A DNA stretch of 64,000 nt from Pseudomonas sp. R76 (GTDB lineage: Bacteria; Pseudomonadota; Gammaproteobacteria; Pseudomonadales; Pseudomonadaceae), in assembly GCF_009834565.1 (NCBI RefSeq), contig NZ_CP019428.1, positions 2,294,001-2,358,000 on the forward strand. The letters run 5' to 3'. Below the pieces are notes generated by a model. The model saw nothing but the letters and a program-made list of their open reading frames with translations, did no database searches and had not been told where the DNA came from. Numbering within the stretch: the first letter of the stretch is position 1; the number at the start of each line of letters is the position of its first letter. Made by a program: the position numbers and the translations under genes. Below, piece by piece: positions 12,909 through 61,439 of the stretch.

Positions 12909-13047
12909 GTTCTACCCCTTTAGGGTTAGGGATTCATAGGGCCGAGCTAAGTACTTGTAGGTATTTACTAATCGGCGACGCCGGGTATATTCACCAGCCA
13001 GTGAGTCATGGCCATGATGGCCTGTCGTTTTTGACAAGGATAGTTAT

Positions 13048-14151
13048 ATGAGTCAATCACATTTGCGAGCCATTTTTTTTGCCTCGCTGGTCTGCGTCGG
13101 TATCAGCGCGCCAGCAGCGGCCGCAGAGTCACGGGTCAATCTGTACAACTGGTTTGGGTTGATCGCGCCAGAGACCCCAAAGGAATTTGAGCAAAAAACC
13201 GGCACCAGGATGCACGTGGACGCTTTCGACAGCGCCGAACTCATGCAGAGCAAAGTCATGGCCGGGCGCACCGGGTATGACGTCGTCGTCGCCACCTCGA
13301 ATGTCCTGCCAAGCCTGATCCAGGCAGGCGTGCTCGCACCGCTGGACCGCAGCCAGCTGAGCAACTATGCCCATATCGACCCCGAGATGCTGGCCCTGCT
13401 TTCGGCTAACGACCCAGGCAATCGCTACGCCATTCCCTACTTATGGGGCACCACCGGCATCGGTTATGACGTGGATAAAGTAAAAGCCGCACTGGGTGAC
13501 AACGCCCCGGTAAACAGTTGGGACCTGATCTTCAAAGAAGAAAACATCAGCAAGCTCAAGTCCTGTGGTGTGGCAATGCTCGACTCGCCGAGTGAAATCA
13601 TTTCGATCGCGTTGAATTACCTCGGGCTGCCGAGCAACAGCCAGAACCCTGAGGACTACCAGAAGGCTCAGGCGCTGTTGTTGAAAATTCGCCCCTACGT
13701 CCTCTACTTCGATTCCTCCAGAACCGACGCCGACTTTGCCGATGGCAATATTTGTGTGGTCGTGGGGTGGGCGAATGGGGCGCTGGCGGCACAGGCCATC
13801 AACGAAAAAAACCACACCGGCCGCAAGATCGCCTACAGCCTGCCGCGCGAGGGCGGGTTGGTATGGTCGGAGAATTTTGTGCTGCTCAAAGACGCACCTC
13901 ACGCAAAAGAAGGCTTGGCATTTATTAACTACATGCTTGAGCCCGAGGTGATTGCCAAAAGTTCCAACCATACGCTTTACCCCAACGCCAACAAGGATGC
14001 CACGGTTTTTGTAGAGCAGAAGCTGCGCGACAACCCATGGGTTTATCCGTCCAAGGAGACCATTGCCACACTGGTCCCGCTGGAGCCGTTGCCGTTGAAG
14101 TTGGAGCGCATCCGCACGCGTGTGTGGACCAAAGTGAAGAGTGGTACGTGA
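13048..14151 (+). CDS. Periplasmic polyamine-type substrate-binding protein (PotF/SpuD-like)
   Basis: 367 residues with a signal peptide ending near residue 26 (ISAPAAAAES). The mature start VNLYNWFGLIAP corresponds to the conserved VYNW.DYI region of PotF/SpuD. Other family features are the segments AELMQSKVMAGRTGYDVVVA, PYLWGTTGIGYD and the C-terminal hinge. These proteins deliver putrescine or spermidine to an ABC importer. No potGHI-type permease or ATPase genes follow, so it is an orphan that either shares a transporter or acts as a sensor for the divergent LuxR regulator. AAGGA precedes the ATG. Confidence 0.9.
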   Translation: MSQSHLRAIFFASLVCVGISAPAAAAESRVNLYNWFGLIAPETPKEFEQKTGTRMHVDAFDSAELMQSKVMAGRTGYDVVVATSNVLPSLIQAGVLAPLDRSQLSNYAHIDPEMLALLSANDPGNRYAIPYLWGTTGIGYDVDKVKAALGDNAPVNSWDLIFKEENISKLKSCGVAMLDSPSEIISIALNYLGLPSNSQNPEDYQKAQALLLKIRPYVLYFDSSRTDADFADGNICVVVGWANGALAAQAINEKNHTGRKIAYSLPREGGLVWSENFVLLKDAPHAKEGLAFINYMLEPEVIAKSSNHTLYPNANKDATVFVEQKLRDNPWVYPSKETIATLVPLEPLPLKLERIRTRVWTKVKSGT

Positions 14152-14186
14152 TCGGGTGAGTAAAGTCCCAGAGAGGGAGATAAAGC

Positions 14187-14438
14187 ATGGGCCAACGTGA
14201 TTACCAGTGCGACGTGAAATCGGACGACTACCAGGCGTACAAGGAAATCGAAGAGCAGATCGGTCACTGTGCGCCGGAACAAGCCTGGGCCATGTATTAC
14301 GTCTCGACCGGGATGGTGCGTGAACACGTGACGCGAGCGGTCATGGAGCACATCGGCAGGGGCAACCGGGCACTGCTGCTGGAGTTCCCCGAACTTGCCC
14401 GACAGGAAGAGAACTCTCGTTTAATGCTCCCTCTCTGA
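14187..14438 (+). CDS. Small conserved protein of unknown function
   Basis: 83 residues, soluble, acidic, with a helix-rich pattern and no known motif. It starts with a strong GGGAG nine bases before ATG 14187, 35 bp behind the binding protein, and ends just before a terminator, so it is the last gene of that two-gene unit. Not recognised; coding character is supported by the ribosome-binding site and operon position only. Confidence 0.7.
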   Translation: MGQRDYQCDVKSDDYQAYKEIEEQIGHCAPEQAWAMYYVSTGMVREHVTRAVMEHIGRGNRALLLEFPELARQEENSRLMLPL

Positions 14439-14453
14439 ACGCTGTAACCCCCC

Positions 14454-14485
14454 AAACGCCGATCACTCCTGATCGGCGTTTTTTT
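14454..14485. terminator. Rho-independent terminator between convergent genes
   Basis: Stem AACGCCGATCA / TGATCGGCGTT, loop CTCC, with seven T on the plus strand and an A-rich 5' side. It can serve both the binding-protein unit and the minus-strand MocR gene. The stem is the same as in the tRNA terminator at 10700. Confidence 0.92.
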
Positions 14486-14496
14486 GTGCGCGTGTT

Positions 14497-15978
14497 TCAA
14501 CGGGCGCTCATGGCCCGCGCCAGGCGCAGCGTGGCTTCACGGATCTCGCCTCGATCCAGCGAGGCGAAACCCAGGCGCAGTGCGTTTTCCGGCAGGTTCA
14601 TCGGCGAAAACTGCCGCGCGCTGCGCACCACAACGCCGTGGCCCAGGGCATTTTCTACCAACTGATCGACATCGGTTTCAGCCTCGAAACGCACCCACAA
14701 TGCCAGGCCGCCTTCCGGTTCGCGCACCTGAATGCGTTCGCCGAATGCCTCGTGCAGGCAGCCCTGCAGCACCTCCCGACGCGCCGCGTATTCTTTCGAA
14801 ACCCGGCGCAGGTGTTTCTTCAACTCGCCCTGATTGATCAGGTCTGCGAGCATCTTCTGCGCCACCGCGTCGGTGTCGCCCACCACCAAAGCGGCGCTGC
14901 GTTGCAGCACCTCAATCACACTGGCGGGGGCGACCACGTAACTGCAGCGAAACGTCGACCCCAGCGCCTTGGATAACGAACCGATATAGATCACATGGCG
15001 TTGCGCGTGATCACTGGCCAGTGGCAGGTACGGCCGCCCGTTGAAGTGATATTCGTGGTCGTAGTCTTCTTCAATGATGCAGAAGTCATGCAAGGCCGCC
15101 AGGGCCAGCAAGTGTTGGCGCCGCGCCGCATGCAGGCTGACGGTGGTGGGGAACTGATGATGCGGTGTGAGGTAGATCATCCGCACGTCATTCGCCTGGC
15201 ATAACTGCTCGATGTGGTCGGTGCGGCAGCCTTCATCGTCCATGTCCACGGTGATCAACCGCGCGCCCAGCTTGCGGAAAATCTCCCAGGCCGGCGGGTA
15301 GCTCAGGCGTTCCACCAGCACCACGTCGCCCGGCTTGATCAGCAAGCTGGCGGTCAGGTACAGCGACACTTGGGTACCGGGCGTCAGGCAAATATTTTCG
15401 GCGCTGACCCTCAGCCCGCGTGTGTTGCGCAGCATCTCTGCCAGCGCGCAACGCAACTCATGGCCGGTGCCTTCACTGCCGTAGCGCACGCTGTTGGAGG
15501 CAAAACTGCTGCGCAAGGCGTTGCGGTAGTAACGATGCAACACCGCCTGGGGCAGCAAGCGGTGATCGCAGGCACCGTTGTCGAAAAACAGCGCGTCATG
15601 CCGGTGTTCGAGGGCGATGACCTGGGCGTTCTGGGTGAAATACGGAACCACGGCTTGCGCCAGAAGCGGCGGTGCAAACGACGGTTGCACACCACTGGGC
15701 AGTGGCGTGGGGGCCAGTTGCGCATTGACGAACGTACCGCGCCGCGGCTCGCTGACCAGCCAGCCTTTGGTCAAGGCTTCTTCGTAGGCCAGGATCACCG
15801 TCTTGCGGTTGACGTCGAGCAGCTTCGCCATTTCCCGCGTGCCGGGCAGCAGTGTGCCGGGCGGCAAGCGCCCCTCAAGGATCGCCGCGACGAGGCCTTC
15901 GGCAATTTGCCGGTAGGACGCCTGGCGTGCACTCGCATCGAGCTTGAGCAACGGGCGCCATTTACGCATCTGGACCAT
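14497..15978 (-). CDS. MocR/PdxR-type regulator (GntR wHTH + aminotransferase domain)
   Basis: 493 residues. The winged helix is at about 20-85 (LPGTREMAKLLDVNRKTV, AYEEALTKGWL), then an aminotransferase-like domain with PLP lysine K337 in GSLSKALGS and the DYDHEYHFNGRP segment found in PdxR-like members. It is transcribed away from the ferredoxin-reductase/M24 fusion, with only 78 bp between starts, which is the normal MocR-target geometry. I infer that it controls that fusion gene. Possible effectors are PLP, an amino acid or an amine. MRKW at 15969 is an alternative start. Confidence 0.92.
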   Translation of the reverse strand: MVQMRKWRPLLKLDASARQASYRQIAEGLVAAILEGRLPPGTLLPGTREMAKLLDVNRKTVILAYEEALTKGWLVSEPRRGTFVNAQLAPTPLPSGVQPSFAPPLLAQAVVPYFTQNAQVIALEHRHDALFFDNGACDHRLLPQAVLHRYYRNALRSSFASNSVRYGSEGTGHELRCALAEMLRNTRGLRVSAENICLTPGTQVSLYLTASLLIKPGDVVLVERLSYPPAWEIFRKLGARLITVDMDDEGCRTDHIEQLCQANDVRMIYLTPHHQFPTTVSLHAARRQHLLALAALHDFCIIEEDYDHEYHFNGRPYLPLASDHAQRHVIYIGSLSKALGSTFRCSYVVAPASVIEVLQRSAALVVGDTDAVAQKMLADLINQGELKKHLRRVSKEYAARREVLQGCLHEAFGERIQVREPEGGLALWVRFEAETDVDQLVENALGHGVVVRSARQFSPMNLPENALRLGFASLDRGEIREATLRLARAMSAR

Positions 15979-42320: not shown

Positions 42321-43241
42321 TTAAATGCCCTGTGGGGTTTCTTCACCGCCCAACGCTTCAACCAGCGCCGGCAGGAACTCGCCGAACGTCAGCATCATCA
42401 GGGTAAAGCTGGCATCCAGTTGGCCCAGGGCTTCGTCGCCGCCGTCCTGTTCCGCCTGGTCTTGCAGCAGGTCTTCGAACTTCAGGCGCTTGACGGTCAT
42501 CTTGTCGTCGAGCATGAAGGACAACTTGTCCTGCCAGGCCAGCGACAGTTGGGTCACGACTTTGCCGGTGGTCAGGTGCAGCTGGATTTCTTCGCCGGTC
42601 AGGTCCTGGCGCTTGCAACGCACAATGCCGCCGTCTTCGTGGGTGTCGCGCAGTTCGCATTCGTCGAGGACGAAGAAGTCATCGGCCGGCTTCTGGGTGG
42701 TGACCCAGTCGGTCATGATGGCAGTTGGCGCAGTTTTGACCGTGAGTGGGCGAACCGGCAGGGTGCCGATCACTTCACGCAGGGTCGACAGCAGGTCTTC
42801 GGCGCGCTTGGGGCTGGCCGAGTTGACCAGGATCAGGCCCTGTTTTGGCGCGATGGCGGCGAAGGTCGACGAGCGACGTACGAATGCGCGAGGTAGGAAC
42901 GAGAGGATGATTTCATCCTTGATCTGATCACGTTCTTTTTTATAGACCTTGCTGCCACGTTGGGCTTCCAGCTCTTCGACTTTCTCCTTTACCGCGTCAC
43001 GCACCACGCTACCCGGCAGGATACGTTCTTCCTTGCGCGCGGCGATCAGCAGGAAGTCGCCGCTGACGTGAACCAGGGGAGCGTCTTCGCCTTTACCAAA
43101 AGGCGCGACGAAACCGTAAGTGGTCAACTCCTGGCTTGCACACGGGCGTGCCAGTTTGGTGGCCATGGCCGCTTCCAACGCCTCGGCATCAACAGGCAGA
43201 TCTTGGGTCAGGCGATAGATAAGCAGGTTCTTGAACCACAT
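42321..43241 (-). CDS. rdgC: Recombination-associated protein
   Basis: 306 residues, the usual RdgC length. It starts [15 protein letters not shown] and has the conserved [18 protein letters not shown] and TDWVT segments. RdgC forms a ring dimer on DNA, dampens RecA activity and sits on the nucleoid. The frame extends eight codons upstream of the family start; ATG 43241 fits the family. Monocistronic. Confidence 0.96.
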
Positions 43242-43351
43242 GGGGTGAGTCTCTCCTTTATACAAAGGGGGGCATTATTCTCTTGATATCGCCTGAGGCC
43301 AACCCTGCCTAAGCCATTGGAAGGGCTGAAAAAAAAGATTTAAGAAAGTGC

Positions 43352-46813: not shown

Positions 46814-48079
46814 ATGAGTATTGGCTCCTCCACATCGACTCCCTCTCCGTCTTTCACCCCGGTTACTCATTCGCTATCGCCGGGACAAGCAAACGATACC
46901 CTGACAGCCTCTCGGAATAACGTGGACACCGCTACGTCCTTTAAGGATAGGGATGGTAATGGGTGGGTAGATATCGAAGTGGATTATGACAGTGGCCCTG
47001 GCACACACTTTGAAAATCTTGGTAATCGCGGGTATCAACCGCTTAATGCTGCGCAGAGGCGCGAGTTATACGCTCAGATGAGTGACTTGGGCGTCGATTT
47101 ACAAGTCAGGTTTCACCGTAAAGGTACTTACGCCACCCCCGATGGGAAGGTAAAGTTTGGGACTTTCAAGCAGAATGAAACACGCTCCAACCTGGTGGTT
47201 GGTTATCCATCAACTGACCCAACCAAACCGACCGAGGTTTATATTCGTAGCAACCCTGATAACCCCAAAGATCAGGCTTTCCTGGCGCCTACCGGGAATA
47301 ACAGAGGGGGGAACTTGCTGGCTCGCGCGTTGTTGTATTCGTTGGGCGTACCTGCTCGTACACCTGCGGAGGGTGAACCTGACTCCAGAGGTTACAGCGT
47401 TCACAGTCGAAATTCGGAAATGACTACAGGTCAAGACTTTAAAGATAAGGCTGTCTCGCGTCCGCAAGAAAAAGACTACGAGCGGTTGATCTCCGCTTAT
47501 AAATTAAATACAGACATTTCTGGGGCTGAATATCTGATTGGTAACCTGGGGCGTGATAATAATCCTGCGACGATGGTCATAGTGAACGGGTTCGGTCATG
47601 ATTCTCTCGATGCAACAGGTGATACGCATGATCAAGTTATCGATATGCATTCCGGGGCGCGCTCTAGTCTAGGCGGATTTAAGGGGAACGTAGTGATTGC
47701 TTCGCACGCGGTCATTGAGGATGTTAAGACGGGGTCGGGGACTAATAGGGTGGTTCCGAATGCCGTGCCTAACACGATTACTTTAGGGCCAGGCAAAAAC
47801 ACGGTTGTCTTTCAAAATCAGTCGGACTCCACCCCGGACAAGTTTGATACTGTCATCGGGTTTAAAGCCGGCGTGGACAAAATAGATATCAGTGCTGTTG
47901 CTACTTCTCAAGGCAGTACGCAATATGCTGTGCCTAATGGCTCTCACCTGGAAATTCAATCAGGTGCGGCGGGCGATACGTATGTATTGTATTGGAAGGA
48001 CTTTTTTACTCGTGACAGTCAAGCACCCGATTTTAAAGTGCGGGCGGACGGCGTCCAGCGGCGCGATATCATTAAATAA
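46814..48079 (+). CDS. Serralysin-like protein lacking the zinc site (predicted pseudoprotease)
   Basis: 421 residues, no Sec signal peptide, as in type I secreted serralysins. Compared with AprA-type proteases, the helix that should carry HEIGHxLGLSH reads RALLYSLGVPA (residues 171-181), so all three His and the Glu are gone. The Met-turn region keeps its frame (YSVHS...TTGQDFK; AprA has YSVMSYW..NTGQDFKG) without the Met. The C-terminal part retains the start of the beta-roll domain (GGFKGNVVIASHAVIEDVKTGSG) and the FDTVIGFKAGVDKIDIS strand. Canonical GGxGxDxL calcium repeats are absent. The end DFKVRADGVQRRDIIK resembles the DF...DIVV type I export signal. AGGTGG precedes ATG 46814. Base composition is more AT-rich than neighbours. 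No transporter is adjacent. A paralogue lies 10 kb away. Confidence 0.75.
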   Translation: MSIGSSTSTPSPSFTPVTHSLSPGQANDTLTASRNNVDTATSFKDRDGNGWVDIEVDYDSGPGTHFENLGNRGYQPLNAAQRRELYAQMSDLGVDLQVRFHRKGTYATPDGKVKFGTFKQNETRSNLVVGYPSTDPTKPTEVYIRSNPDNPKDQAFLAPTGNNRGGNLLARALLYSLGVPARTPAEGEPDSRGYSVHSRNSEMTTGQDFKDKAVSRPQEKDYERLISAYKLNTDISGAEYLIGNLGRDNNPATMVIVNGFGHDSLDATGDTHDQVIDMHSGARSSLGGFKGNVVIASHAVIEDVKTGSGTNRVVPNAVPNTITLGPGKNTVVFQNQSDSTPDKFDTVIGFKAGVDKIDISAVATSQGSTQYAVPNGSHLEIQSGAAGDTYVLYWKDFFTRDSQAPDFKVRADGVQRRDIIK

Positions 48080-48236: not shown

Positions 48237-48929
48237 TTATAAACCCATCAACCGATACCCCACCTGCAACTCGGTAATAAAGTGCTTTGGCTGCGCCGGG
48301 TCCGTTTCCAGCTTTTGCCGCAAATGCGCCATGTGCACGCGCAAATAGTGGGCGCGGTCGACGTAATCCAGCCCCCACACGTCCAACAATAATTGCCGAT
48401 GCGTCAGCACTCGGCTCTGGCCGCGAATCATCGCGCAGAGCAGGCGGTATTCGATGGGCGTGAGGTGCACCGGCTGGCCCTGGCGCCACACCTCATGGGT
48501 CGACAGGTCGACTTCAATCTCGCCAAACGCCACCTTGCTGGTGGCCGCCACGGCGCCGGTCTGCCCATGCCGGCGCAATTGTGCGCGGATGCGCGCCAGC
48601 AGCTCGGGCACGCCGAATGGCTTGGTCAGGTAATCATCCGCGCCGGCGTCGAGCGCGGCGACTTTTTCTTCTTCGCGATCACGCGCCGACAGCACCAGGA
48701 TCGGTACCGCCAGCCAGCCGCGCAATTCGCTGATCAGTTGTTTGCCATCGCCGTCCGGCAGGCCGAGGTCGACGATCACCAGGTCCGGCTGGCGGCTGGC
48801 GGCATGGATCAACGCGCGCTTGACGCTGTCGGCTTCGAATACCTGAAAACCCTCGTCTTGCAGGGCTATCCCGACAAAGCGGCGAATATTGGCTTCGTCT
48901 TCAACAATCAAAATGCGTGCAGTGCTCAT
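48237..48929 (-). CDS. kdpE: KdpE response regulator
   Basis: 230 residues: receiver (ILIVEDEANIRRF, phosphoacceptor in LVIVDLGLPDGDG, Lys in YLTKPFG) and OmpR-type winged helix (LTPIEYRLLCAMI, YLRVHMAHLRQKLE). It activates kdp transcription under K+ limitation after phosphorylation by KdpD. Overlaps kdpD by four bases. The 157-bp region beyond its stop to the serralysin-like gene contains nothing recognised. Confidence 0.95.
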   Translation of the reverse strand: MSTARILIVEDEANIRRFVGIALQDEGFQVFEADSVKRALIHAASRQPDLVIVDLGLPDGDGKQLISELRGWLAVPILVLSARDREEEKVAALDAGADDYLTKPFGVPELLARIRAQLRRHGQTGAVAATSKVAFGEIEVDLSTHEVWRQGQPVHLTPIEYRLLCAMIRGQSRVLTHRQLLLDVWGLDYVDRAHYLRVHMAHLRQKLETDPAQPKHFITELQVGYRLMGL

Positions 48930-51577
48930 AGGGCTTCCATGGGCGGCGGAGTGCCCGCCGGTAACGTGATGATGAAGTGCATGCCGCCTGCATCGCCGGG
49001 GTTGGCGTGGATGCGCCCGCCATGGGCCTCGACAATGCGTTTGGCCAGCGCCAGGCCCAGGCCGATGCCGGCGACGGACGACTCCTGCTGGCCGCGCGCG
49101 AAGGGTTCGAACAGGTTCGCCGGCGCTTTACCCGGGCCGGTGTCGCTCACTTCCAGCACGATGCTGTCTGCCACTGCGCGTGCGGCGACAGTAATGGCGG
49201 TGCCCGGCGGGGTGTACTTGGCGGCGTTGTCCAGCAGGTTGACCAGCACCCGCTCGATCAACAGCGCGTCGATGTCCACCAGTGGCAATGTCGGGTCCAG
49301 CAGGGTGTGCACGCGGTGTCTCGCCAGCGGCTCACGCAACTGGCGCAACGCACTGCCGACGATTTCTTCCAGCGAATGCCATTGCCGGTTCAGGCGCACG
49401 CCGCGTTCCTGCATGCGCGCCATGTCCAGCAGGTTTTCGATCAGGCGCTGCATCGACGTGGCCTGTTCGTGAATGCCATTGAGCAATTCGGTCAACGGCC
49501 CCGGTGGCGCGTGGGGCAGGGCGGTGTCGGCGGCGCCGATCAGGGTGGTCAACGGTGTGCGCAAGTCGTGGGAAATCGCCGCGAGCAGGGTGTTGCGCAT
49601 CTTCTCGCCTTCCATCTGTACCAGCGTGCTTTGCGCCACTTCGACGAAGTGCACGCGCTCCAGCGCAATTGCCAGCTGGCTCATGCAGGCTTCCAGCAAG
49701 CGACGTTCCTGTGGGTCATTCAGGCGCTCGCTTTGCGCCAGCTCCAGCACCAGCACGCCGCGCACGCGCATCGGCGCTTTGAGCGGCAAATAGCAACCTT
49801 TGGCCGCCGACAACGTGTCGGTGCCTTGGCCGGCGGCTTGGCCGTGGTCGTAGGTCCATTGCGCGATGCTGTCGTCAATCGGAAGCCCGCTGGCACTGAC
49901 GCTGTGCACGCCATCGGCCGCGTCCGGCAGTGCCAGGCCGACCCGTGCTTCGAACACGCCGCTGAAGGTGCGCAGGGCCACCTCGCTGATGTGCTCCACG
50001 GTCAACGCCGCCGACAGGTCACGGGCCAGCCGCGCCAACGAGGTCGCGCGGCGTTCGCGGGCGGCGGCGGTGCGCGCTTCGTGGCGCAGGCGTGCGGTGA
50101 GTTGCCCGGTGATCAGGGCGATGCCAAGCATCAACGCAAAGGTGAAAAAATACTGGGTGTCATTGACGGTGAACGAGTAGCGCGGCTGCACAAAAAAGAA
50201 GTCGAAACACAACACCGCAAGCATCGCCGCCCACACGCCGGGGCCACGGCCAAAACGCAGGGCTACCAGCACCACCGTGAGCAAAAACAGCATGACCACG
50301 TTGGCCAGGTCGAACACTTGCAGCAGCAAAGCCGCGATGGCGCTGGCGGCGAAGCAGGCGAGGGTGGCCCACAGGTAGGCCAGGGCTCGGCCCGGTGCAG
50401 GCGTCGACTGTTTGATCGCAGGCGTTGGGCCAGGCAATACGCCGTGGGCGATCACGATCTGATCGATTTGCGGATGGTGCCGGCTGATCCGGTCGCTCAC
50501 CGACGGGTGCCAGAACCGCCAGGCCCGGCGCGGGTGGTGGCCGAGCACCAGGCGATTGGCATTGTGTTCGCGGGCGCAGGCAGCCAGGGCTTCGGCCACG
50601 TCCATGCCCGGCAGCGTCGCGGTGTCGGCGCCGAATTCAGTCGCCAGCGCCAGGGTCTTCATCGCCGTCAGGTAACGCCTGGCGCCGCGGCCCTGGTGGG
50701 TGGCCACATGCACGACGATCCAGTCGGCTTCGAGTTTTTGTGCCAGCCGCGCGGCTTCACGCACCAGGCGTTCATCACCGGTATCTCCGGCGATGCCCAC
50801 CAGCAGCCGCTCGCGAGCCGGCCAGAGGGTTTTGATCGACTGTTCGCGGCGGTACACGCGCATTTGCGTATCGACCCGATCCGCTGTGCGCCGCAACGCC
50901 AGCTCGCGTAACGCCAGCAGGTTGCCCTTGCGGAAAAAGTGCTGCGAGGCGCGCGCCGCCGCAGGGCCCAGGTACACCTTGCCGTCCTTGAGACGTTGCA
51001 AAAGGTCGTCGGGTGGCAGGTCGATCACCACCACTTCGTGGGCGTTATCGAACACATGATCCGGCACCGTTTCGCGTACGCGAATGCCGATGATGCCGCT
51101 GACCAGATCATTCAGGCTTTCCAGGTGCTGGACGTTGAGCGTGGTCCACACGTCGATGCCCGCGCTGAGCAGTTCTTCGATGTCTTGCCAGCGTTTGGGG
51201 TGGCGCGAGCCGGGCGCGTTGCTATGGGCCAGCTCGTCCACCAGCACCACGGCGGGGTGGCGGCGCAGGGCGGCGTCGAGGTCGAATTCGCTGAGGGCGA
51301 ACTCGCGGTGCAGCAAGGTGGCGCGGGGCAGTTGTTCCAGGCCTTGGAGCAGCTCGGCGGTCTCGGCACGGCCGTGGGTTTCTATCACCCCGGCGAGCAG
51401 GTCACGGCCAAGGGCGACTTCGCGTTGCGCCGCCGCGAGCATGGCGCAGGTTTTGCCGACGCCCGCGTTGGAGCCGAAGTAGATACGCAATTTGCCGCGC
51501 AAGGCGGCCTGTTCTTCCAGCTGTACCCGGGCCAGCAGGGCGTCGGGGTCGGGGCGCTCATTTTTTAATGCGGGCAT
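48926..51577 (-). CDS. kdpD: KdpD sensor histidine kinase
   Basis: 883 residues. The N-terminal KdpD domain has Walker A GSNAGVGKT and Walker B VVLVDELAH. A Usp-like domain follows (RLLVGIAGDTGDERLV), then four membrane helices at about 400-500, a GAF-like region, HisKA with the phosphoaccepting His in AAISHDLRTPLTTL, and HATPase with NLLDNAAKYTP and GIGLGLALAKRIVEAHGG. It senses K+ and turgor. AGGAAG precedes the ATG. A REP element separates it from kdpB. Confidence 0.96.
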   Translation of the reverse strand: MPALKNERPDPDALLARVQLEEQAALRGKLRIYFGSNAGVGKTCAMLAAAQREVALGRDLLAGVIETHGRAETAELLQGLEQLPRATLLHREFALSEFDLDAALRRHPAVVLVDELAHSNAPGSRHPKRWQDIEELLSAGIDVWTTLNVQHLESLNDLVSGIIGIRVRETVPDHVFDNAHEVVVIDLPPDDLLQRLKDGKVYLGPAAARASQHFFRKGNLLALRELALRRTADRVDTQMRVYRREQSIKTLWPARERLLVGIAGDTGDERLVREAARLAQKLEADWIVVHVATHQGRGARRYLTAMKTLALATEFGADTATLPGMDVAEALAACAREHNANRLVLGHHPRRAWRFWHPSVSDRISRHHPQIDQIVIAHGVLPGPTPAIKQSTPAPGRALAYLWATLACFAASAIAALLLQVFDLANVVMLFLLTVVLVALRFGRGPGVWAAMLAVLCFDFFFVQPRYSFTVNDTQYFFTFALMLGIALITGQLTARLRHEARTAAARERRATSLARLARDLSAALTVEHISEVALRTFSGVFEARVGLALPDAADGVHSVSASGLPIDDSIAQWTYDHGQAAGQGTDTLSAAKGCYLPLKAPMRVRGVLVLELAQSERLNDPQERRLLEACMSQLAIALERVHFVEVAQSTLVQMEGEKMRNTLLAAISHDLRTPLTTLIGAADTALPHAPPGPLTELLNGIHEQATSMQRLIENLLDMARMQERGVRLNRQWHSLEEIVGSALRQLREPLARHRVHTLLDPTLPLVDIDALLIERVLVNLLDNAAKYTPPGTAITVAARAVADSIVLEVSDTGPGKAPANLFEPFARGQQESSVAGIGLGLALAKRIVEAHGGRIHANPGDAGGMHFIITLPAGTPPPMEAL

Positions 51578-51607
51578 ATTCTTCCTGTTGAATGCAGTGC
51601 TGTTCCC

Positions 51608-51696
51608 TGTGGGAGCTGGCTTGCCTGCGATGGCGGTGTGTCAGTCGGTACAGGGCAAGCTGACCCACCGCTATCGCAGGCAAGCCAGCTCCCACA
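51608..51696. repeat. REP doublet between kdpB and kdpD
   Basis: Arms TGTGGGAGCTGGCTTGCCTG and its complement, extended by GCGAT pairing. It sits where kdpC would be expected in the canonical gene order. Confidence 0.92.
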
Positions 51697-51709
51697 TTGG
51701 ATTTTGTCG

Positions 51710-53779
51710 CTACACGAGACCCAACCCACTCAGCAGCATGTCGATCAGCTTGATCCCGGCAAACGGCACCAACACACCGCCCAGGCCATAGATCAACAGG
51801 TTGCGATTGAGCAACGCCGCCGCGCCGATGGCGCGGTACGTCACGCCGCGCAACGCCAGTGGAATCAACGCGACAATGATCAGCGCGTTAAAAATCACCG
51901 CGCTGAGAATCGCCGAGTTGGGGCTGCTCAGGTGCATCACGTTCAACGCGCCGAGCTGCGGGTAGGTGGCGACAAACGCCGCCGGGATGATTGCGAAGTA
52001 CTTCGCCACGTCATTCGCCACGCTGAAGGTGGTGAGGGCGCCACGGGTCATCAGCATCTGTTTGCCGACCTCGACCACTTCGATCAGCTTGGTCGGGTTG
52101 CTATCGAGGTCGACCATGTTGCCGGCCTCTTTCGCCGCCTGGGTGCCGCTGTTCATCGCCACCGCCACGTCGGCCTGGGCCAGCGCCGGTGCGTCGTTGG
52201 TGCCGTCGCCGGTCATCGCCACCAGCTTGCCCTGGGCCTGGTAGTCGCGGATCAGTTGCAGCTTGTCTTCCGGGCGGGCCTCGGCGAGGAAGTCATCCAC
52301 GCCGGCTTCCACCGCAATCGCGGCCGCGGTGAGGCGGTTGTCGCCGGTGATCATCACGGTCTTGATGCCCATGCGCCGCAGTTCGGCGAAGCGCTCCTTG
52401 ATGCCGCCCTTGACCACGTCCTTGAGCTCGACCACGCCCAGCGCCTTGGCGCCGTCGCTGACCACCAACGGCGTGCTGCCGCGTCGTGACACTTCATCGA
52501 CTTTGGCCTGCAACGCCGCCGGAAAACTCCCACCCAAGGCTTCGATGTGGCTGCGAATCGCATCCGCCGCGCCCTTGCGAATCGCCCGGCCTTCGGGCAG
52601 GTCGACGCCGCTCATGCGGGTTTGCGCGGTGAAGTGCACAAAGCTGGCGCCCAGGGCGTTGATGTCCCGTGCGCGGATGTCGAATTTCTGCTTGGCCAGT
52701 ACCACGATGCTGCGGCCTTCCGGGGTTTCGTCGGCCAGGGACGCGAGTTGCGCGGCGTCGGCCAGCTCGGCTTCCTTCACGCCGGGTGCCGGTAAAAAGC
52801 TGCTGGCCTGGCGGTTGCCCAAGGTGATGGTGCCGGTCTTGTCCAGCAGCAACACGTCGACATCACCCGCCGCCTCGACCGCACGGCCCGAGGTGGCGAT
52901 GACATTCGCCGACATCATCCGGCTCATGCCCGCCACGCCGATGGCCGAGAGCAGGCCGCCGATGGTGGTGGGGATCAGGCACACCAGCAACGCCACCAGC
53001 ACCGTGGCGCTGATCACGCTGCCGCTGCCGCTCATGGCCACGGCGAAGATCGAGTAGGGGCTCAGCGTGGCGATCACCAGCAGGAACAACAGGGTCAGGC
53101 CCACCAGCAGAATCGTCAGGGCGACTTCGTTGGGCGTCTTCTGGCGCTTGGCCGATTCGACCATCGAGATCATGCGGTCCAGAAATGATTCGCCAGGGTT
53201 GACGCTGATGCGCACCACCAGCCAATCCGACAGCACCCGCGTGCCACCGGTGACCGAGGAAAAGTCGCCACCGGCCTCGCGAATCACCGGGGCCGACTCG
53301 CCGGTGATCGCGCTTTCATCCACCGAGGCCACGCCTTCAATCACCACGCCGTCCAGCGGCACCAGGTCACCGGCTTCGATCAACACCACGCTGTCTTTGC
53401 GCAGCAGGCTGGCTTCCAATGGCAGCCAGGCCGCGCCGTGGCGCGGCTGCTGCAGCAACTTGGCCAGGGTCTGGCGTTTCATCCCGCGCAGGCTCGCGGC
53501 CTGGGCGCGGCTGCGACCTTCGGCCAGGGCTTCGGCGAAGTTGGCGAACAGCACGGTGAACCACAGCCACAAGGTGATGCTGAGGATAAAACCACTGGGC
53601 GCTTCACCCTTGCCGCCCAGGGATTGGAACCACAGCAGCGTGGTGAGGATGCTGCCCAGGTACACCACGAACATCACCGGGTTTTTCCATTGGGCCTGGG
53701 GCAGCAGTTTCTTCAGCGCGTCGATGCCGGCAGTCAGCACGATGCGTTGGTCAAACAGGGGTAAACGAGCATTCTTCAT
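51710..53779 (-). CDS. kdpB: KdpB, P-type ATPase subunit of the K+ pump
   Basis: 689 residues. The phosphorylation motif DKTGTIT has Asp at residue 313. Also present: the actuator loop [10 protein letters not shown], the membrane motif [19 protein letters not shown], and hinge [21 protein letters not shown]. It hydrolyses ATP to drive K+ uptake through KdpA. Here it follows kdpC (12 bp gap) instead of kdpA. Confidence 0.97.
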
Positions 53780-53791
53780 GAGGGCAATCTC

Positions 53792-54439
53792 TTACTCACT
53801 GACCGCAATAGAGGGCTGACGCGCATCCAGCGCCAAGTTGAGTTGCAGCACATTCACCCGTGGCTCGCCGAGCAGGCCGAGGGTGCGTGCGGCGGTGTGG
53901 TCGTTGAGCAGTTGCAGCAGGTCGGTTTCAGGGATGTGGCGCAAGCGTGCGACCCGCGCCAATTGCAGCCGGGCGTTGGCCACCGAGATGTGTGGGTCCA
54001 GTCCCGAGGCGGAGGCGGTGACCGCGTCGACCGGCACCGGGGCGTCGGTGGCCAGGCCGTTGTCCTGGCGATAGGCCTTGGCACGTGCGGCGACCTGGTC
54101 CAGCAGTTTCTGGCTGGTCGGGCCGAGGTTGCTGGCGCCGCTGGAACCGGCGTTGTACGGCTGCGAAATGCTCTTGCTCGGGTCTTGCGGGTCGGCGCCG
54201 AGGGTCATGCTTGGGCGGCCCTGGAAGTACTCGGGTTTGGCGAAGTTCTGGCCGATCAACGCCGAGCCGATCACCAGTCCGTCGCGTTCAATCAGCGAGC
54301 CACTGGCCTGATACGGGAATAACAGTTGCGCGGCCACGGTGGTGAACGCGGGGTACGCCAGCCCGGTCAGCAGCATAAAAAACACCGCTGACACCAGCAC
54401 TGGGCGCAGCAGCCCTTTGAATATCGATTGAGTCGTCAT
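53792..54439 (-). CDS. kdpC: KdpC subunit of the K+ pump
   Basis: 215 residues. One N-terminal membrane helix (LVSAVFFMLLTGLAYPAF) and a periplasmic domain with the family segments LIGQNFAKPEYFQGRPS, SGASNLGPTS, PVPVDAVTASASGLDPHIS. ATG 54439 with AAGGA eight bases upstream is preferred to the preceding TTG. Located between kdpA and kdpB, an unusual order. Confidence 0.96.
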   Translation of the reverse strand: MTTQSIFKGLLRPVLVSAVFFMLLTGLAYPAFTTVAAQLLFPYQASGSLIERDGLVIGSALIGQNFAKPEYFQGRPSMTLGADPQDPSKSISQPYNAGSSGASNLGPTSQKLLDQVAARAKAYRQDNGLATDAPVPVDAVTASASGLDPHISVANARLQLARVARLRHIPETDLLQLLNDHTAARTLGLLGEPRVNVLQLNLALDARQPSIAVSE

Positions 54440-54449
54440 CAACAGGTCC

Positions 54450-56156
54450 TTAGTTGTACGTCTGGCCGGACAGCAACTGCAGTTGCTCCACCAGCGGGCC
54501 GAGCGCGAGCGCCGGCAGGAAGGTCAAGCCACCGACCACCAGCACCACGAACACCACCAGCAGCATGAACAGCGGCGTCGCGGTGGGGATGGTGCCGGCG
54601 CCGGCCGGAACGGTTTTTTTCATCGCCAGGGAACCGGCTACGGCCAGCATCGGCAGCATGGTGAAGAAGCGTCCGATCAACATCGCCAGGCCGATGGTGG
54701 TATTGAAAAACGGCGTGTTGGCATTCAGCCCGGCAAACGCCGAACCGTTGTTGGCGGTGCCCGAGGTGTAGGCGTACAGCACCTCGCTGAAACCGTGGGG
54801 GCCGAGGTTGTTGAGGCTGGCCAGAGTGCCCGGCCAGAGGGCGGCGAGGGCGGTGAAACCGAGGATGCTGATGGGGTGCGCGAGCACCGAGAGCATCACC
54901 AGTTTCATCTCCCGGGCTTCGATCTTCTTGCCGAGAAATTCCGGGCTGCGGCCGATCATCATGCCCACCAGAAACACCGTGAGCAGCGCGTACTGAATCA
55001 GGTTGATAAAGCCAACGCCGTCACCGCCGAACACGCAGTTGAGCATCATCTGCGCCAGGGGCACGAAGCCGCCCATGGGTGTCAGCGAGTCGTGCATGGC
55101 ATTCACCGAGCCGGTAGTGGCAGCGGTGGTGGTGGCGATAAACAAGCTGCTGTCGGCGATGCCGAAGCGCAGTTCCTTGCCTTCCATATTGCCGCCGCTT
55201 TGCTCAATCGACAGCGTCTGGTTGGCGCCGGCCTGGGTCAGCAGCGGGTTGCCGGTTTGCTCGGCGCCATACACCAGCGCGAGGAAACCGATGAACATCA
55301 CCAGAAACGTACCGAAGAACACCCAGCCTTGGCGGCGTTGCAGCAGCATGCTGCCAAAGGTGTAGGTCAGCGCCGACGGGATCAGCAACATGCTGAGGAT
55401 GTGCAGGATGTTGGTCAGCGGCGTCGGGTTTTCGAACGGGTGGGCGGCGTTCATGCTGAAAAAGCCGCCGCCGTTGGTGCCGATATGCTTGATCGACTCA
55501 AAGCTGGCGACTGCGCCAACGATCAACTGTTGCTGCGCGCCCTCAAGCGTCGTCGCCAGGGCTTGGGAAGCGAAGGTTTGCGGCATGCCTTGCCACACAT
55601 ACACCAACGCCATGCCGACGCAGAGGGGCAGCATCACCCGGTAAAGGGTGCGGGTGAAGTCGACCCAGAAGTTGCCGATATCCGCCGCGCTTGAGCGGCT
55701 CAAACCGCGAATGAAACCCGCCGCCGCGACCACGCCGGAGGTGGCGCCGACAAACATCAGAAAGGTGATGACCGCCATCTGGCTGAAGTTCGACAGGCTG
55801 GTTTCACCCGAGTACGCCTGCCAGTTGGTGTTGGTAATAAAGGACGCGGCGGTGTTGAACGCCAGGTCCGGGGTTTGCGCGTCCAGCCCCAGCGGGTTGA
55901 TCGGCATCACCGCCTGCAGGCGCAGGACGATATAGCCGAGCAGCATCATCGCCGCGTTCGACAGCAACAAGGCCGAACCGTAGCGGGCCCAGCCCATGGT
56001 CTCCAGCGGGTCGATGCCCAGCAGGCGATACGTGCAGCGTTCCGGCAGGGCGTGGCGGTTCCCGGTAAAGACCCGGGTCAGCCACTTGCCCATCAGCACG
56101 GCGAGCGCGGTCATCAACCCCAGGACCAGCGCGAATTCCAGCAGAGTGCTTAACAT
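54450..56156 (-). CDS. kdpA: KdpA, K+ translocating subunit
   Basis: 568 residues, the family's usual length, ten or more membrane helices. The four selectivity-filter repeats are recognisable, for example [40 protein letters not shown], and the [15 protein letters not shown] segment. The start at ATG 56156 gives [13 protein letters not shown]; the longer frame from 56210 overlaps a small upstream ORF and is rejected. Followed by kdpC after 10 bp. Confidence 0.97.
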
Positions 56157-56169
56157 GTCGTGGCTCCGT

Positions 56170-56253
56170 TCAAATCTTGCCCATGGCGACAATGGCCATG
56201 GCAGTCGCACTGAAAAACACCAGGGAGAGGCCCATAAACATCACGTCGTACAT
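56170..56253 (-). CDS. 27-residue membrane protein between kdpF and kdpA
   Basis: [20 protein letters not shown] plus seven residues ending GKI: a single hydrophobic helix with acidic N-terminus and basic end. ATG 56253 has GGGAG six bases upstream. It lies 10 bp behind kdpF and 13 bp ahead of kdpA, so it is translated within the operon if real. Short hydrophobic ORFs with a similar DVxFxxLSLxFF pattern occur near kdpF in other bacteria as I recall; function unknown, possibly a pump stabiliser. Confidence 0.65.
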
Positions 56254-57083: not shown

Positions 57084-58332
57084 GTGAATGTTAATGCGTC
57101 CTCTAATAGCGTTATTGCTAGTTCCATTCCTGCTTCAAATCCGGTCACGTCGCAGGGTAATGATGTCCTTTCCGCCCAGAACTCTGCGCGCTGGCAAGAT
57201 AAAGACAATGATGGGAAAATTGATATTGAAGTCGATTTCGGTGACGAAGAAGGTGAGCATTTTTCCGGTTCAGGTCTGACAGGCTTCAACGCACATAATG
57301 AGGCGCAGCAGAGAGGACTGTGGTTTCAGATGGGCCTCATGACTAATGATGTAAATGTGAAGTTTCACAGGCAGGGTTCAATAGACAGCCCTGATGGGAA
57401 AATCAAAATCGGGTCCTTTCAGCAAAGCACAACACAAAATAGTGATGTGGTGAGCTACACGCCAACGGATTCAAGTAAGCCTGTCGAGGTTTACTTTAAC
57501 GGGAACGAAGCGCAGAACCCAACGATTTCAACTCCCGACGACTTTAATAAAGGCGGTAACACGCTGACTCGAACGGTGCTATACGCCATGGGTGTAACCC
57601 CTCCCACGCCAGTGGAAGAGGGCGGTACGCATGATTCCCAGGGTTACAGTGCACTCAGCCCTCGGCCAGAAATCGAAACGGGCCAGGATTTTAAGGGGCA
57701 CTCTGTCGCCAGAGCGCAAGTAAAAGACAAGGAAAAGTTGGAGAGTCTCTATACAAACACGAATATTAAAGAGCAGACATTTGAGTTGCATAATTTAGGT
57801 GCTGATGGGTATGGCGCGACGTTTTCTATTTCGAGTGGAGTCAGTGGCCATGAGATCATCGACGCGAGTGAAGATACTCATGATCAAGATATCAATCTGA
57901 AGCCGGGAGCACATTCCAGTGTAAGGGGCTATACAGGTAATGTGTCTATTACTTCCGGGACGGTGGTTGAAGATGTTAAAACAGGATCGGGTAAAAAACG
58001 GGATCTATCCTAACGCTGGGGCGAATACTATCACCTTGGGTACAGGCGCAAATACCGTCGTTTATGAGCAAGAGTCGGATGGCAGTCCAGCACGCCAGGA
58101 TAAAATAATTGGGTTTAAAACGGGGGTGGATAAGCTGGATGTGAGTCATCTTTGGACTTACCCACCTTACATGCGCTTTGAAGTCGAAACAAACGCAGAC
58201 GGGTCCACCTGGGTGAAGGGATGGTCGGGCGCTGATAAAAGTGGGCCGGTTCCTGATAAAGCCCCAGACTTTTTGCTACGTGCTGATGGCGCCCAAAGGA
58301 GCGACCTCATCTTAAATGCCATAGGTATTTAA
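57084..58332 (+). pseudogene. Second serralysin-like gene, frameshifted at an A6 run
   Basis: Start GTG 57084 with AAGGTG upstream. The N-terminal 310 residues parallel the first paralogue: KDNDGKIDIEVDFG, RTVLYAMGVTPP replacing the zinc helix, YSALS...ETGQDFKG. The first frame ends at TAA after GSGKKRDLS. The sequence GGT-AAAAAA-CGG contains six A; with five, the frame would run GSGKNGIYPNAGANTITLG and continue to 58332 through the DKIIGFKTGVDKLDVS strand and the DFLLRADGAQRSDLIL end. One inserted A therefore explains the break. Zinc ligands are absent as in the first copy. AT-rich like its paralogue. Confidence 0.78.
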
Positions 58333-58467: not shown

Positions 58468-59598
58468 TTATAAGTTTCGACTATGCCGATAGTCGCTCAC
58501 CGCCTCATACACCGCCTTGCGCAACCGATTGATCCCCCCAATCGGCCGATGTGCCTCCAACCCGAACCAGGGGTTAAACGACTGGTTATCACAGGCCAGA
58601 TTCAACGCCGGTGTATCGAAATCCTGCGCAGGGATCCGCACCTTGGCCACGGTTTCATACGGCGCATCACTTTCCTTCCATTCAATGCTGGTGTCTTCAA
58701 TCGGCATGAACTTCTGCGGGTTCTGCCGCTGAATCTGCAACACAAAACACGCCGGCACGCGATCAGTCGACAGTTGCTGGTTCAACGCGCTGCGCAGAAA
58801 ATTCGGCAGGTCCTGGTTCTGCTTGGGCAACACATATTCCGGGCAGCTTTGCGGGTCGGGCGTCACACGGAACTTGGCATTCGCCGCGCCGAACTTGTAA
58901 GGCGAAACCGAAAAGTATGTAGTCTGCGTCGGGCTGGCCGGGGCGGGTGCCAGGGTCGCCAGGGCGATAAACAAGTGCCGCACCTGCCAACTGCGCGGGT
59001 CTGCCTTGGGAAAGAACGCGAGGACTTTCTTGCCATCGGCCTGGGCACCGATGTTCTGCGCATATTCCGCCACATCGCTGACAAAAAAGTTCGGATGGCT
59101 GAACATTACGAAGTCTTGTTCCGTGCGTGCCTGCTGGTCCGCCATCAGCTGTTTGCCCGGTACGTCCAGCAGTTTGAGGGCCATGCCTCGCGCATCGCGG
59201 ATGCTGTCGAATTGCGGATAAGCGTTGCCGTTGGACAGGCGCACCAGCGCTTGCCAGGTCTTGCCCGGCTCGGCGAATACGCCTTGGCGCAATGCCGGGT
59301 CGAGGTCCGCCATTACGCTGACTTCGGCCTTCACGCAGCCGTGGGCCTTGGCATGGGCATCACGCAGGTAGCGCGTGCCTTCGCGGTGCTGGTCGACGAT
59401 GCGCACCGCCGTCTGGATGATGCCCTGGCTCATGGCCGCTTCACCGGGCGGGATTTGCTCGTTCGGTGACACCGGGCCGCTGTGTTGCCAAGCGAACCAG
59501 GCGGTAGCGATCAGCCAGCCCAGCAGCCCCAGGCCCACCAGCCACAACAGGGTCTTACCCAGAAACGCGCCGAGGCGCAGCCACAGACGAGCGAGCAT
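58468..59598 (-). CDS. Membrane-anchored catalase-family haem protein
   Basis: 376 residues. One N-terminal membrane helix (about 14-36) then a catalase-like barrel domain: HGCVKAEVSV (position of the distal His region), VRLSNGN, DARGMALKLLDV, DFVMFSHPNFFV and the late NPWFGLEAHRPIGGINRLR segment. It is shorter than true catalases (about 480 residues or more) and resembles catalase-related proteins such as those next to lipoxygenases or peroxidases. ATG 59598 with AAGGA upstream; a start at 59631 would overlap the previous stop by four bases. Second gene of an operon with the di-haem protein. Confidence 0.85.
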   Translation of the reverse strand: MLARLWLRLGAFLGKTLLWLVGLGLLGWLIATAWFAWQHSGPVSPNEQIPPGEAAMSQGIIQTAVRIVDQHREGTRYLRDAHAKAHGCVKAEVSVMADLDPALRQGVFAEPGKTWQALVRLSNGNAYPQFDSIRDARGMALKLLDVPGKQLMADQQARTEQDFVMFSHPNFFVSDVAEYAQNIGAQADGKKVLAFFPKADPRSWQVRHLFIALATLAPAPASPTQTTYFSVSPYKFGAANAKFRVTPDPQSCPEYVLPKQNQDLPNFLRSALNQQLSTDRVPACFVLQIQRQNPQKFMPIEDTSIEWKESDAPYETVAKVRIPAQDFDTPALNLACDNQSFNPWFGLEAHRPIGGINRLRKAVYEAVSDYRHSRNL

Positions 59599-59627
59599 GG
59601 AACGGTCCTTGTATTGCGATCGGATAA

Positions 59628-61439
59628 TCATGGCAATTGTTGCTCCAGCGGGCCGCCCAGCACTTTGAGGTATTCCAGCAGCGCCCAGCGTTCCTGCGGC
59701 AGCAGGCCACGGCCGATCACGCCATTGCCACGCTTGCCGTCACGGAATTCATGGCCGCTGTTGTGGTTGCCGGTGATTGAGGTGTCGAACAGGAAGGCGT
59801 TCTTGAATGCGCCGGTCTCAAAGCCCAGGTGGCGCGGGTCGTAGGCGAACGTGCCTTTATAGAAGGTAGTGCTGCGCTCATCCTGGGGCGAGAGCAGTTG
59901 GTAGATCGTCGGCACCGAGCCGTTATGCAGGAACGGTGGCGTGGCCCATACGCCGGCCAGGGGGCGCGCCTTGTAGGCACGCAGCTCGCGCACGCCGATG
60001 GGCAGGCCGAACCCGTCCAGGCTCGGCCGCTCGGCTGGAGTCACGCCAGCGGTGCGATAGGCGTGGTCTTCGACAAAGGCGGTGACGTAGGCCAGGCCTT
60101 GGGCCACGGACATTTTGTGCAGGTCCAGCGCTGCGGTCGGCGTGGGGTGCAGCTCGACGTTGAGCTTGGCCAGTTCTGCCGGGTCCCATTGCAGGGCGCT
60201 GAGGTCGTAGCGCTGGTCGGCGATGTTGCTGGCGGTGCCGGGGTCGGTGCCGATGTACTCCACAGGCAGCATTTTCAGTTGTTGCACCGGGCGGCCATTG
60301 ACCTGGCTGACGGCGGGCACATGGCAGCCGGCGCAGTTCTCGGCAAACAGCGCGCGGCCTTGGGCGGCGAGGGGTTTGTCGACGGCGCCGAACAGGTCTT
60401 GCGGCCAGGTGGGCGGCTTGAGGCGTTGCAGGGTTTCTTCGATCAGGTTGAGGTCGCGCACGCGCACGCTGGAGGGATAGCGGGCAGCGCCTTGAAGTGG
60501 CTGGCCGGCACTGTCGAAGAAATCCAGCGTCGCGCCGACACCGAGGGCTTCACCGATATTGCGCGCCATGGGTTGCTGGGCCGAACCGTTCCATTGCACC
60601 CAGTCGAAGGTCCAGATATCCCACAGCTGCGGGTAGTCCACCGGCGCATTGGCGACACGGTAGTTGTCCGGCGAGATGGCATCGCCAAAGCTGGCGTTGG
60701 CGATACGGCCGAACGCGTCGGTGCGGCCCGGGCCTTCTTCGGTGGGGTAGAGGCCGCGATGGGTGTCGTTCCAGGCGACCTTGAGGAACTGGTTCAGGGA
60801 TTGTTTGAAGTCCTGACGCAGTTGCTGCTTGTTATGATCGTCATAGTCGTGGCCGAGCACCTTGCGGGCGAAACGGTCGAACTTCCACGGGGTGTAATAG
60901 GTGGCGGCAAGGCTGGCCACCAGCGCCTGGCCGAAACTGCCGCCGCGCAATGTGGGCACGCTGGAGGGCAGCACGTGCTGGGCCGAACCGCCGTCGATGC
61001 GCAGGGCCTGGCCTTTGAAGTGCAGCTCGCCGGTGTGGCAGGCGGCGCAGGTGATGTCCAGGTATTCAACCTGGCTGCCGGCGTTCTGGTGCCGGGCGAA
61101 ACCCACCGGCAGGTTGCCAGGGTTTTGCGCGGTAGGAACCTGCTTGGGATCGACCAGGAAGCCAAAGCGCGCCAAGTACTCGGGCGTGGCGAAACGCTGG
61201 TCTGAAAACGGCAATTCCAGAGCGGTGAACCAGTCGTAATGCAGGCCTTTGACCTGGGTGCCCTGGGGCGTGAAGTAGAAGGTCTGGCGGTCGGCGGCAC
61301 TCCATTGGTCCTGATAGTGGACCTGCTCCACGGGCACGTAGTCCGGCAGCTTGGGGTTGATGGTGTAATAGAGCACGACGGCCAGCAGCAGGCCGAGTGC
61401 GAGCAATATCAGAAGCAAAACACGGGAAAAAGTGCGCAA
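59628..61439 (-). CDS. Membrane-anchored di-haem cytochrome c peroxidase-like protein
   Basis: 603 residues from TTG 61439 (AAGGA eight bases upstream). A signal anchor (residues 7-27) places the rest in the periplasm. Two CxxCH haem c sites: C131-C134-H135 and C369-C372-H373. The C-terminal half contains the RARPLAGVWATPPFLHNGSV-like segment (here KARPLAG...) typical of di-haem peroxidase/RoxA-related proteins. It may use peroxide or O2; neighbouring catalase-like protein suggests a joint role in peroxide or lipid-peroxide handling. Confidence 0.85.
   Translation of the reverse strand: MRTFSRVLLLILLALGLLLAVVLYYTINPKLPDYVPVEQVHYQDQWSAADRQTFYFTPQGTQVKGLHYDWFTALELPFSDQRFATPEYLARFGFLVDPKQVPTAQNPGNLPVGFARHQNAGSQVEYLDITCAACHTGELHFKGQALRIDGGSAQHVLPSSVPTLRGGSFGQALVASLAATYYTPWKFDRFARKVLGHDYDDHNKQQLRQDFKQSLNQFLKVAWNDTHRGLYPTEEGPGRTDAFGRIANASFGDAISPDNYRVANAPVDYPQLWDIWTFDWVQWNGSAQQPMARNIGEALGVGATLDFFDSAGQPLQGAARYPSSVRVRDLNLIEETLQRLKPPTWPQDLFGAVDKPLAAQGRALFAENCAGCHVPAVSQVNGRPVQQLKMLPVEYIGTDPGTASNIADQRYDLSALQWDPAELAKLNVELHPTPTAALDLHKMSVAQGLAYVTAFVEDHAYRTAGVTPAERPSLDGFGLPIGVRELRAYKARPLAGVWATPPFLHNGSVPTIYQLLSPQDERSTTFYKGTFAYDPRHLGFETGAFKNAFLFDTSITGNHNSGHEFRDGKRGNGVIGRGLLPQERWALLEYLKVLGGPLEQQLP

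Follow-up and report, generated by a model that had tools for sequence, protein, structure and literature searches.

A serralysin relative with a dismantled active site and its divergent kin at one chromosomal region of Pseudomonas

Serralysins are secreted proteases that have been studied in depth and have links to virulence. They are described as marked by the zinc-binding motif HExxHxxGxxH (PMC3034196, PMC4070987) and by the methionine of the Met-turn (PMC3034196). Here we describe a serralysin relative that carries neither. It is encoded in a stretch of 64,000 nucleotides from Pseudomonas sp. R76 (contig NZ_CP019428.1, positions 2,294,001 to 2,358,000), which we call the window. The gene, copy 1 of what we term a pseudoserralysin, occupies positions 46814..48079 of the forward strand, just where the initial annotation of this DNA had placed it; the ATG lies at 46814, the last sense codon runs to 48076 and the stop to 48079, giving a protein of 421 amino acids.

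Copy 1 descends from serralysins, as had been proposed. It scores 78.1 bits (E 9.8e-22) against Pfam Peptidase_M10_C (PF08548), passing the curated cut-off of 20.7, and matches serralysins in the PDB with a best E of 1.3e-14. Its N-domain alone, compared profile to profile with serralysin N-domains, reaches a probability of 99.7 (E 2.4e-26; 0.4 and 0.14 for the reversed control). The predicted model has the M10-type two-domain fold, with a putative metzincin N-domain and beta-roll over about residues 37-421. This profile-profile comparison and the structural comparison of the model, made by VIA-align on Foldseek's list, rule out an unrelated fold. At 79.6 bits, the protein stays below the cut-off of 500 of the NCBIfam serralysin model NF035945.

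The active site has been lost. The catalytic glutamate, the zinc-binding histidines, the methionine and tyrosine of the Met-turn and the strict nonapeptides are all gone from copy 1. The former zinc helix (47324..47356, forward strand) reads RALLYSLGVPA and aligns with HEIGHTLGLAH of the AprA-type protease of the same genome; since the columns through the helix are free of gaps, this replacement, noticed initially, is not an alignment error. A likeness around the Met-turn had been claimed too: the neighbouring TGQDFK segment is indeed retained, but the Met-turn itself (47393..47410, forward strand, by alignment) has YSVHSR in place of YSVMSY. Across the family the glutamate, the Met-turn methionine and the Met-turn tyrosine are each found in 0/19 rows, while the serralysin rows of the same alignment have the methionine in 25/25 and the tyrosine in 24/25.

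The zinc-ligand positions differ among family members. In fifteen family rows the histidines are lost. R stands at the first ligand position in 14 of these and Y at the second in 14, the exceptions being Q and S in one row each; at the third, 10 rows have P and five A. All three histidines are retained in the other four rows (P0012, P0013, P0014 and P0017 from P. salomonii; e.g. HALLHALGLPH), and there the catalytic glutamate is replaced by A in three and T in one; P0013, P0014 and P0017 are closely similar to one another. These members, which keep the histidines and lack the glutamate, were overlooked in the initial annotation. For comparison, HExxHxxGxxH is present in 67 of the 71 non-family open reading frames (ORFs) that the family profile found, the other four being of 156-242 amino acids and without the motif. 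The loci behind these 71 were the top-scoring ones of their searches, not a random draw. Some of the 67 motif-bearing ORFs are one gene seen in overlapping loci; counted by the motif and 30 further residues, 48 are distinct.

The second half of the protein has changed as well. The best Peptidase_M10_C stretch, at 47579..47926 on the forward strand, is the beta-roll, and it contains no strict nonapeptide; such motifs number zero in all 18 full-length family proteins, confirming the claimed loss, and at least one is present in 66 of the 67 motif-bearing serralysin-type ORFs (L008 has none). The C-terminal APDFKVRADGVQRRDIIK (48023..48076, forward strand), with K as its last residue, resembles serralysin C-terminal regions, e.g. 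the end of L056, PDFKVLVKGQVTRSDIVA. In RTX (repeats-in-toxin) proteins the type I secretion signal lies at the C-terminus and stays uncleaved. A D followed by two of I/L/V occurs inside the last 45 residues of 18/18 family proteins. Of the 67 serralysin-type ORFs, 43 have A as their last residue and six have V. The proposed genome check for export and inhibitor genes found both in the window's genome, a PrtD-type exporter and an Inh-type inhibitor, along with an AprA-type gene, and in 4/4 carriers the Inh gene and the exporter, both above curated cut-offs, adjoin the AprA-type M10_C gene. Export of copy 1 through an AprD/PrtD-type type I system is likely, judging from these sequences.

Two side observations concern the same protein class. 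At about 256-265 kb of G000:C1 (L002, L003, L004 and L006) several M10_C genes with intact HExxHxxGxxH are clustered, and the L002 open frame has 740 amino acids versus 486 for the AprA-type gene. Within the family's most conserved stretch, copy 1 carries an EF-hand-like loop, DRDGNGWVDIEVD (46946..46984, forward strand), a form found in 19/19 family rows and, by eye, less regular in serralysins. By its motif this loop is a candidate for calcium binding away from the beta-roll.

The family is rare in the genomes sampled. A search of the protein database gave 14 relatives at E <= 0.001, and a profile search, its scoring limited to the 8000 candidates with the most words in common, gave 15 at E <= 1e-30, adding one protein, P0015. 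Two of the 15 are named, both from Pseudomonas (P. fluorescens, and P0015 from Pseudomonas sp. KBS0710), with the annotations 'M10 family metallopeptidase C-terminal domain-containing protein' and 'hypothetical protein'. Searching genome contigs with the single protein gave no match; searching them with the family alignment gave six loci, two family members and four alphaproteobacterial M10 proteins bearing HExxH, and the P. trivialis and P. salomonii members came from this search. A conserved R/Y pair across many species had been named as supporting evidence. Instead, matches at E <= 1e-30 are found in 3/398 same-genus genomes, the window's own included, and the two residues vary as given above. 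In a second same-genus sample (397 genomes centred on G031, apparently not including the window's own genome), the query P0015 found matches in G031 and G409 and in no other genome. The profile matched 106 of 392 relatives at E <= 1e-30; among the matches listed, those above 500 bits are the two copies in the window and one place in G031, and the next has 175, so the remaining matches are taken as serralysins. Another search, with 35/95 matching at E <= 0.001, is read in the same way.

In the tree the 19 family rows lie on one side of a branch with 100/100 support in both analyses. The first used all columns under LG+G4, the second a mixture model after removal of five long-branch outgroups and of the columns for the helix and Met-turn. 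Members with and without the histidines separate with supports of 98/94 and 99/96 in the first tree and 99/98 and 79/48 in the second. The simplest history would be a loss of the glutamate on the stem and a single loss of the histidines; the latter is likely but not proven, because the support of the histidine-less group falls to 79/48 once the trait columns are removed.

Is such a gene simply decaying? The relatives of copy 1 are kept as intact genes and its dead domain is under purifying selection. We estimated nonsynonymous and synonymous divergence (dN, dS) by the Nei-Gojobori method with bootstraps. Copy 1 and the P. trivialis gene differ by a dN of 0.338 and a dS of 1.638, a ratio of 0.207 (0.124-0.284). 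The N-domain alone gives 0.135 (0.071-0.226; 181/200 bootstraps valid) and the beta-roll with the C-terminus 0.274 (0.127-0.474); AprA of the same two genomes gives 0.138 (0.093-0.191). Against the KBS0710 gene the ratio is 0.197, with 159/200 bootstraps valid and a saturated N-domain dS. In a ranking of conservation over 11 representatives, the alignment segment on the former helix is 19th of 360 and that starting at residue 190 is third. These ratios and the open frames rule out a decaying one-off pseudogene for copy 1, while copy 2 is broken. Of the earlier interpretation, the altered helix is borne out in 15 family rows in all, both copies included, and the ratios are well below one; R and Y are each absent from one of those rows.

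The second copy lies in the same window. Its first piece (57084..58013, forward strand) has a likely GTG start and ends soon after a frame break, and its second (57997..58332, forward strand, a different frame) holds the C-terminal part. The helix reads RTVLYAMGVTP, the same kind of replacement, as had been seen; the frameshift near 57990-58001 had been missed. Near relatives, P0004 and P0006, are open throughout. Between the copies lies a kdp operon (48237..56210, reverse strand; KdpD, KdpC and KdpA by Pfam, KdpE and KdpB by position and by response-regulator and P-type ATPase domains). The whole is flanked by rdgC (42321..43265, reverse strand; Pfam RdgC, 380 bits) and, at the opposite end, by a catalase-like gene (58468..59631, reverse strand; Pfam Catalase, 26.3 bits), which border the region in other species too. 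In KBS0710 the family gene stands beside kdpE, with rdgC and a piece of the catalase-like gene in the 19.5 kb covered. In P. salomonii (L049) it stands beside a kdpE remnant with both flanks present; the kdpE-end match (9511-9666) is 83% over 52 residues, and the 21 kb covered contain no other kdp match. In P. trivialis it adjoins the catalase-like gene, with no kdp or rdgC match in the 21 kb covered. The same region is thus occupied in four carriers, with both flanks in three.

This one chromosomal region carries very divergent versions of the gene. Neighbouring proteins are 87-99% identical between carriers and family proteins 39-58%; the neighbours' dS is 0.13-0.92, against 1.6, 2.3 or saturation for the family genes. 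The five family copies have a GC content of 0.48-0.51 (0.46-0.51 at third codon positions, GC3), versus 0.59-0.65 (GC3 0.73-0.86) for five comparison genes. In G030 rdgC and kdpE, about 730 bases apart, enclose no family match, nor do the catalase-like gene and rdgC of G040, about 970 bases apart. From identity, dS, GC and carrier layout we therefore conclude that the gene is accessory and recurs at the same place, with versions older or faster-evolving than their surroundings. The window's two copies belong to separate old sub-clades; they may represent allelic lineages of a single region that have diverged. Of the earlier view that the zinc site was lost before the copies duplicated, the shared alteration of the helix stands; the duplication itself is weakened.

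The surroundings differ in further ways. Between the family gene and rdgC, genes for a sigma factor, FecR and a TonB-dependent receptor are found in KBS0710 (L054, 10909-14929, by Pfam) and in L049 (11796-15816, by likeness); the window has a major facilitator superfamily gene and a LysR gene there. The KBS0710 receptor (12497-14929) consists of two adjoining ORFs, 12497-12997 and 12998-14929, and that of L049 of one, of 810 amino acids. The upstream DNA of five family genes (copy 1, copy 2 and those in L048, L049 and L054) is otherwise diverged but has weak common stretches around GAAATATCTGCT and TAGGA, which may be due to chance.

What might such a protein do? Because the metal and catalytic residues are gone and the relatives are yet intact, it probably works by binding, not cutting. 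Our preferred reading, whose chances we judge to be evenly balanced, is a binding pseudoprotease derived from serralysins that probably still leaves the cell through an AprD/PrtD-type type I system. The old substrate groove would hold a protein or peptide partner without cleaving it. This partner would lie outside the cell and vary: perhaps a protein of a host or competitor, perhaps one that the active protease takes as its substrate. A variable partner would explain the divergence of the family proteins, and neighbours 87-99% alike beside a family protein below 60% hint at an antagonistic one. Our first choice is that it competes with active AprA, either for an inhibitor of foreign origin or for a substrate, as a bodyguard decoy or substrate shield; this would fit a dead but conserved site with divergent versions. 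AprA is reported to degrade flagellin monomers and thereby to escape plant and mammalian detection (PMC3161968). The fuller picture, a bacterial bodyguard decoy for a secreted protease, formed by a Pseudomonas clade of pseudoproteases exported by type I secretion, with a stepwise dismantled site (glutamate, later zinc ligands), a binding groove and old, divergent alleles exchanged at a single chromosomal region under antagonistic selection, is one we consider rather unlikely.

Several observations weigh against a binding role. The ligand, expression and export of the pseudoserralysin are predictions only. Loss of the nonapeptides could impair export, and the last residue is not hydrophobic in 11/18 full-length family proteins. 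The model's predicted local distance difference test score (pLDDT) is below 50 at residues 159-166, 186-195 and 200-213, beside the former active site. From the helix to the Met-turn, dN/dS is 0.248 with a wide interval (0.088-0.542). The dS is saturated in 4/6 carrier pairs and high in the other two, and the low GC3 of the family genes makes its comparison with that of the neighbours uneven. Finally, copy 2 (57084-58332) is frameshifted, so that 1/5 genomic copies is broken.

This last point also suits the best-placed alternative, that the gene is weakly kept low-GC accessory cargo with no strong function, coming into one region, diverging there and later disappearing. The low GC and GC3, the rarity (3/398 genomes) and the empty regions of G030 and G040 speak for it. 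However, ratios of about 0.2 and open frames across a long divergence, and the same region in four carriers, do not, and no transposase or integrase was noticed by eye in nearby ORF lists, no dedicated search having been made. We give this account only a minor chance, equal to that of the full bodyguard-decoy picture. Somewhat more doubtful is a structural or adhesive extracellular protein, with beta-roll and dead domain serving as a matrix or surface component. After serralysins, the next matches of the beta-roll are AlgE R-modules, secreted lipases and the S-layer protein RsaA, and RTX proteins with structural roles, e.g. S-layers, are known (PMC3034196). The protein is small, though, it has no strict nonapeptides, and its N-domain is not less constrained than its beta-roll (0.135 vs 0.274, with overlapping intervals).

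A decoy for AprI (Inh), of the own cell or of other bacteria, had been suggested initially and is now very improbable; a toxin, suggested alongside it, is neither favoured nor disfavoured by these data. The Inh gene does adjoin an AprA-type gene in all four carriers, and AprI is described as also touching the protease-domain surface beside the zinc (PMC4070987), so weak binding to a pseudoserralysin would be possible. But the same source has the zinc coordinating the N-terminal residue of AprI, with N-terminal fusions abolishing inhibition; members without the histidines have no zinc ligand, and copy 1 lies about 0.96 Mb from the Inh gene. Least credible is an active enzyme with new chemistry or an altered metal site: the former site is among the conserved parts, four members retain three histidines, and six residues (S191, Y194, S195, S198, E202 and D208) do not vary among 18 family proteins, yet the ligand positions hold R, Y and A/P (Q or S in single members) and several of the invariant residues are usual in serralysins too.

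If the binding pseudoprotease is real, the dead version and the members with histidines and no glutamate would form a stepwise record from enzyme to pseudoenzyme in bacteria, and the bodyguard-decoy idea would become testable for a bacterial protease. Copy 1 resembles serralysins such as AprA in its predicted two-domain fold, M10_C match, TGQDF segment and C-terminal region; it differs in the lost glutamate, zinc histidines, Met-turn methionine and tyrosine and strict nonapeptides, and in falling below the NF035945 cut-off. Some members of the CLCA zincin-like proteins reportedly have substituted catalytic sites too (PMC3650047), again in a zinc-protease lineage, though of another family. Our literature searches on inactive serralysins or pseudoproteases and on the KBS0710 locus, with most subscription journals outside their scope, gave no description of such a family among the matches listed. 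TesG was dropped as a comparable type I effector, as PMC12646011 contains neither the word serralysin nor metalloprotease. The nearest parallel is PsXLP1 of Phytophthora sojae, described as a bodyguard decoy for PsXEG1 (PMC5814044). Such a decoy would be an inactive paralogue, secreted together with the enzyme, to which the inhibitor binds better than to the enzyme itself. PsXLP1 is a truncated paralogue of a glucanase, not of a protease, and decoy binding by the pseudoserralysin is a prediction. Nevertheless, PsXLP1, which has no known activity, is paralogous to a secreted enzyme that its organism retains intact (PMC5814044), just as a dead-site paralogue and an intact AprA-type gene coexist in the window's genome.
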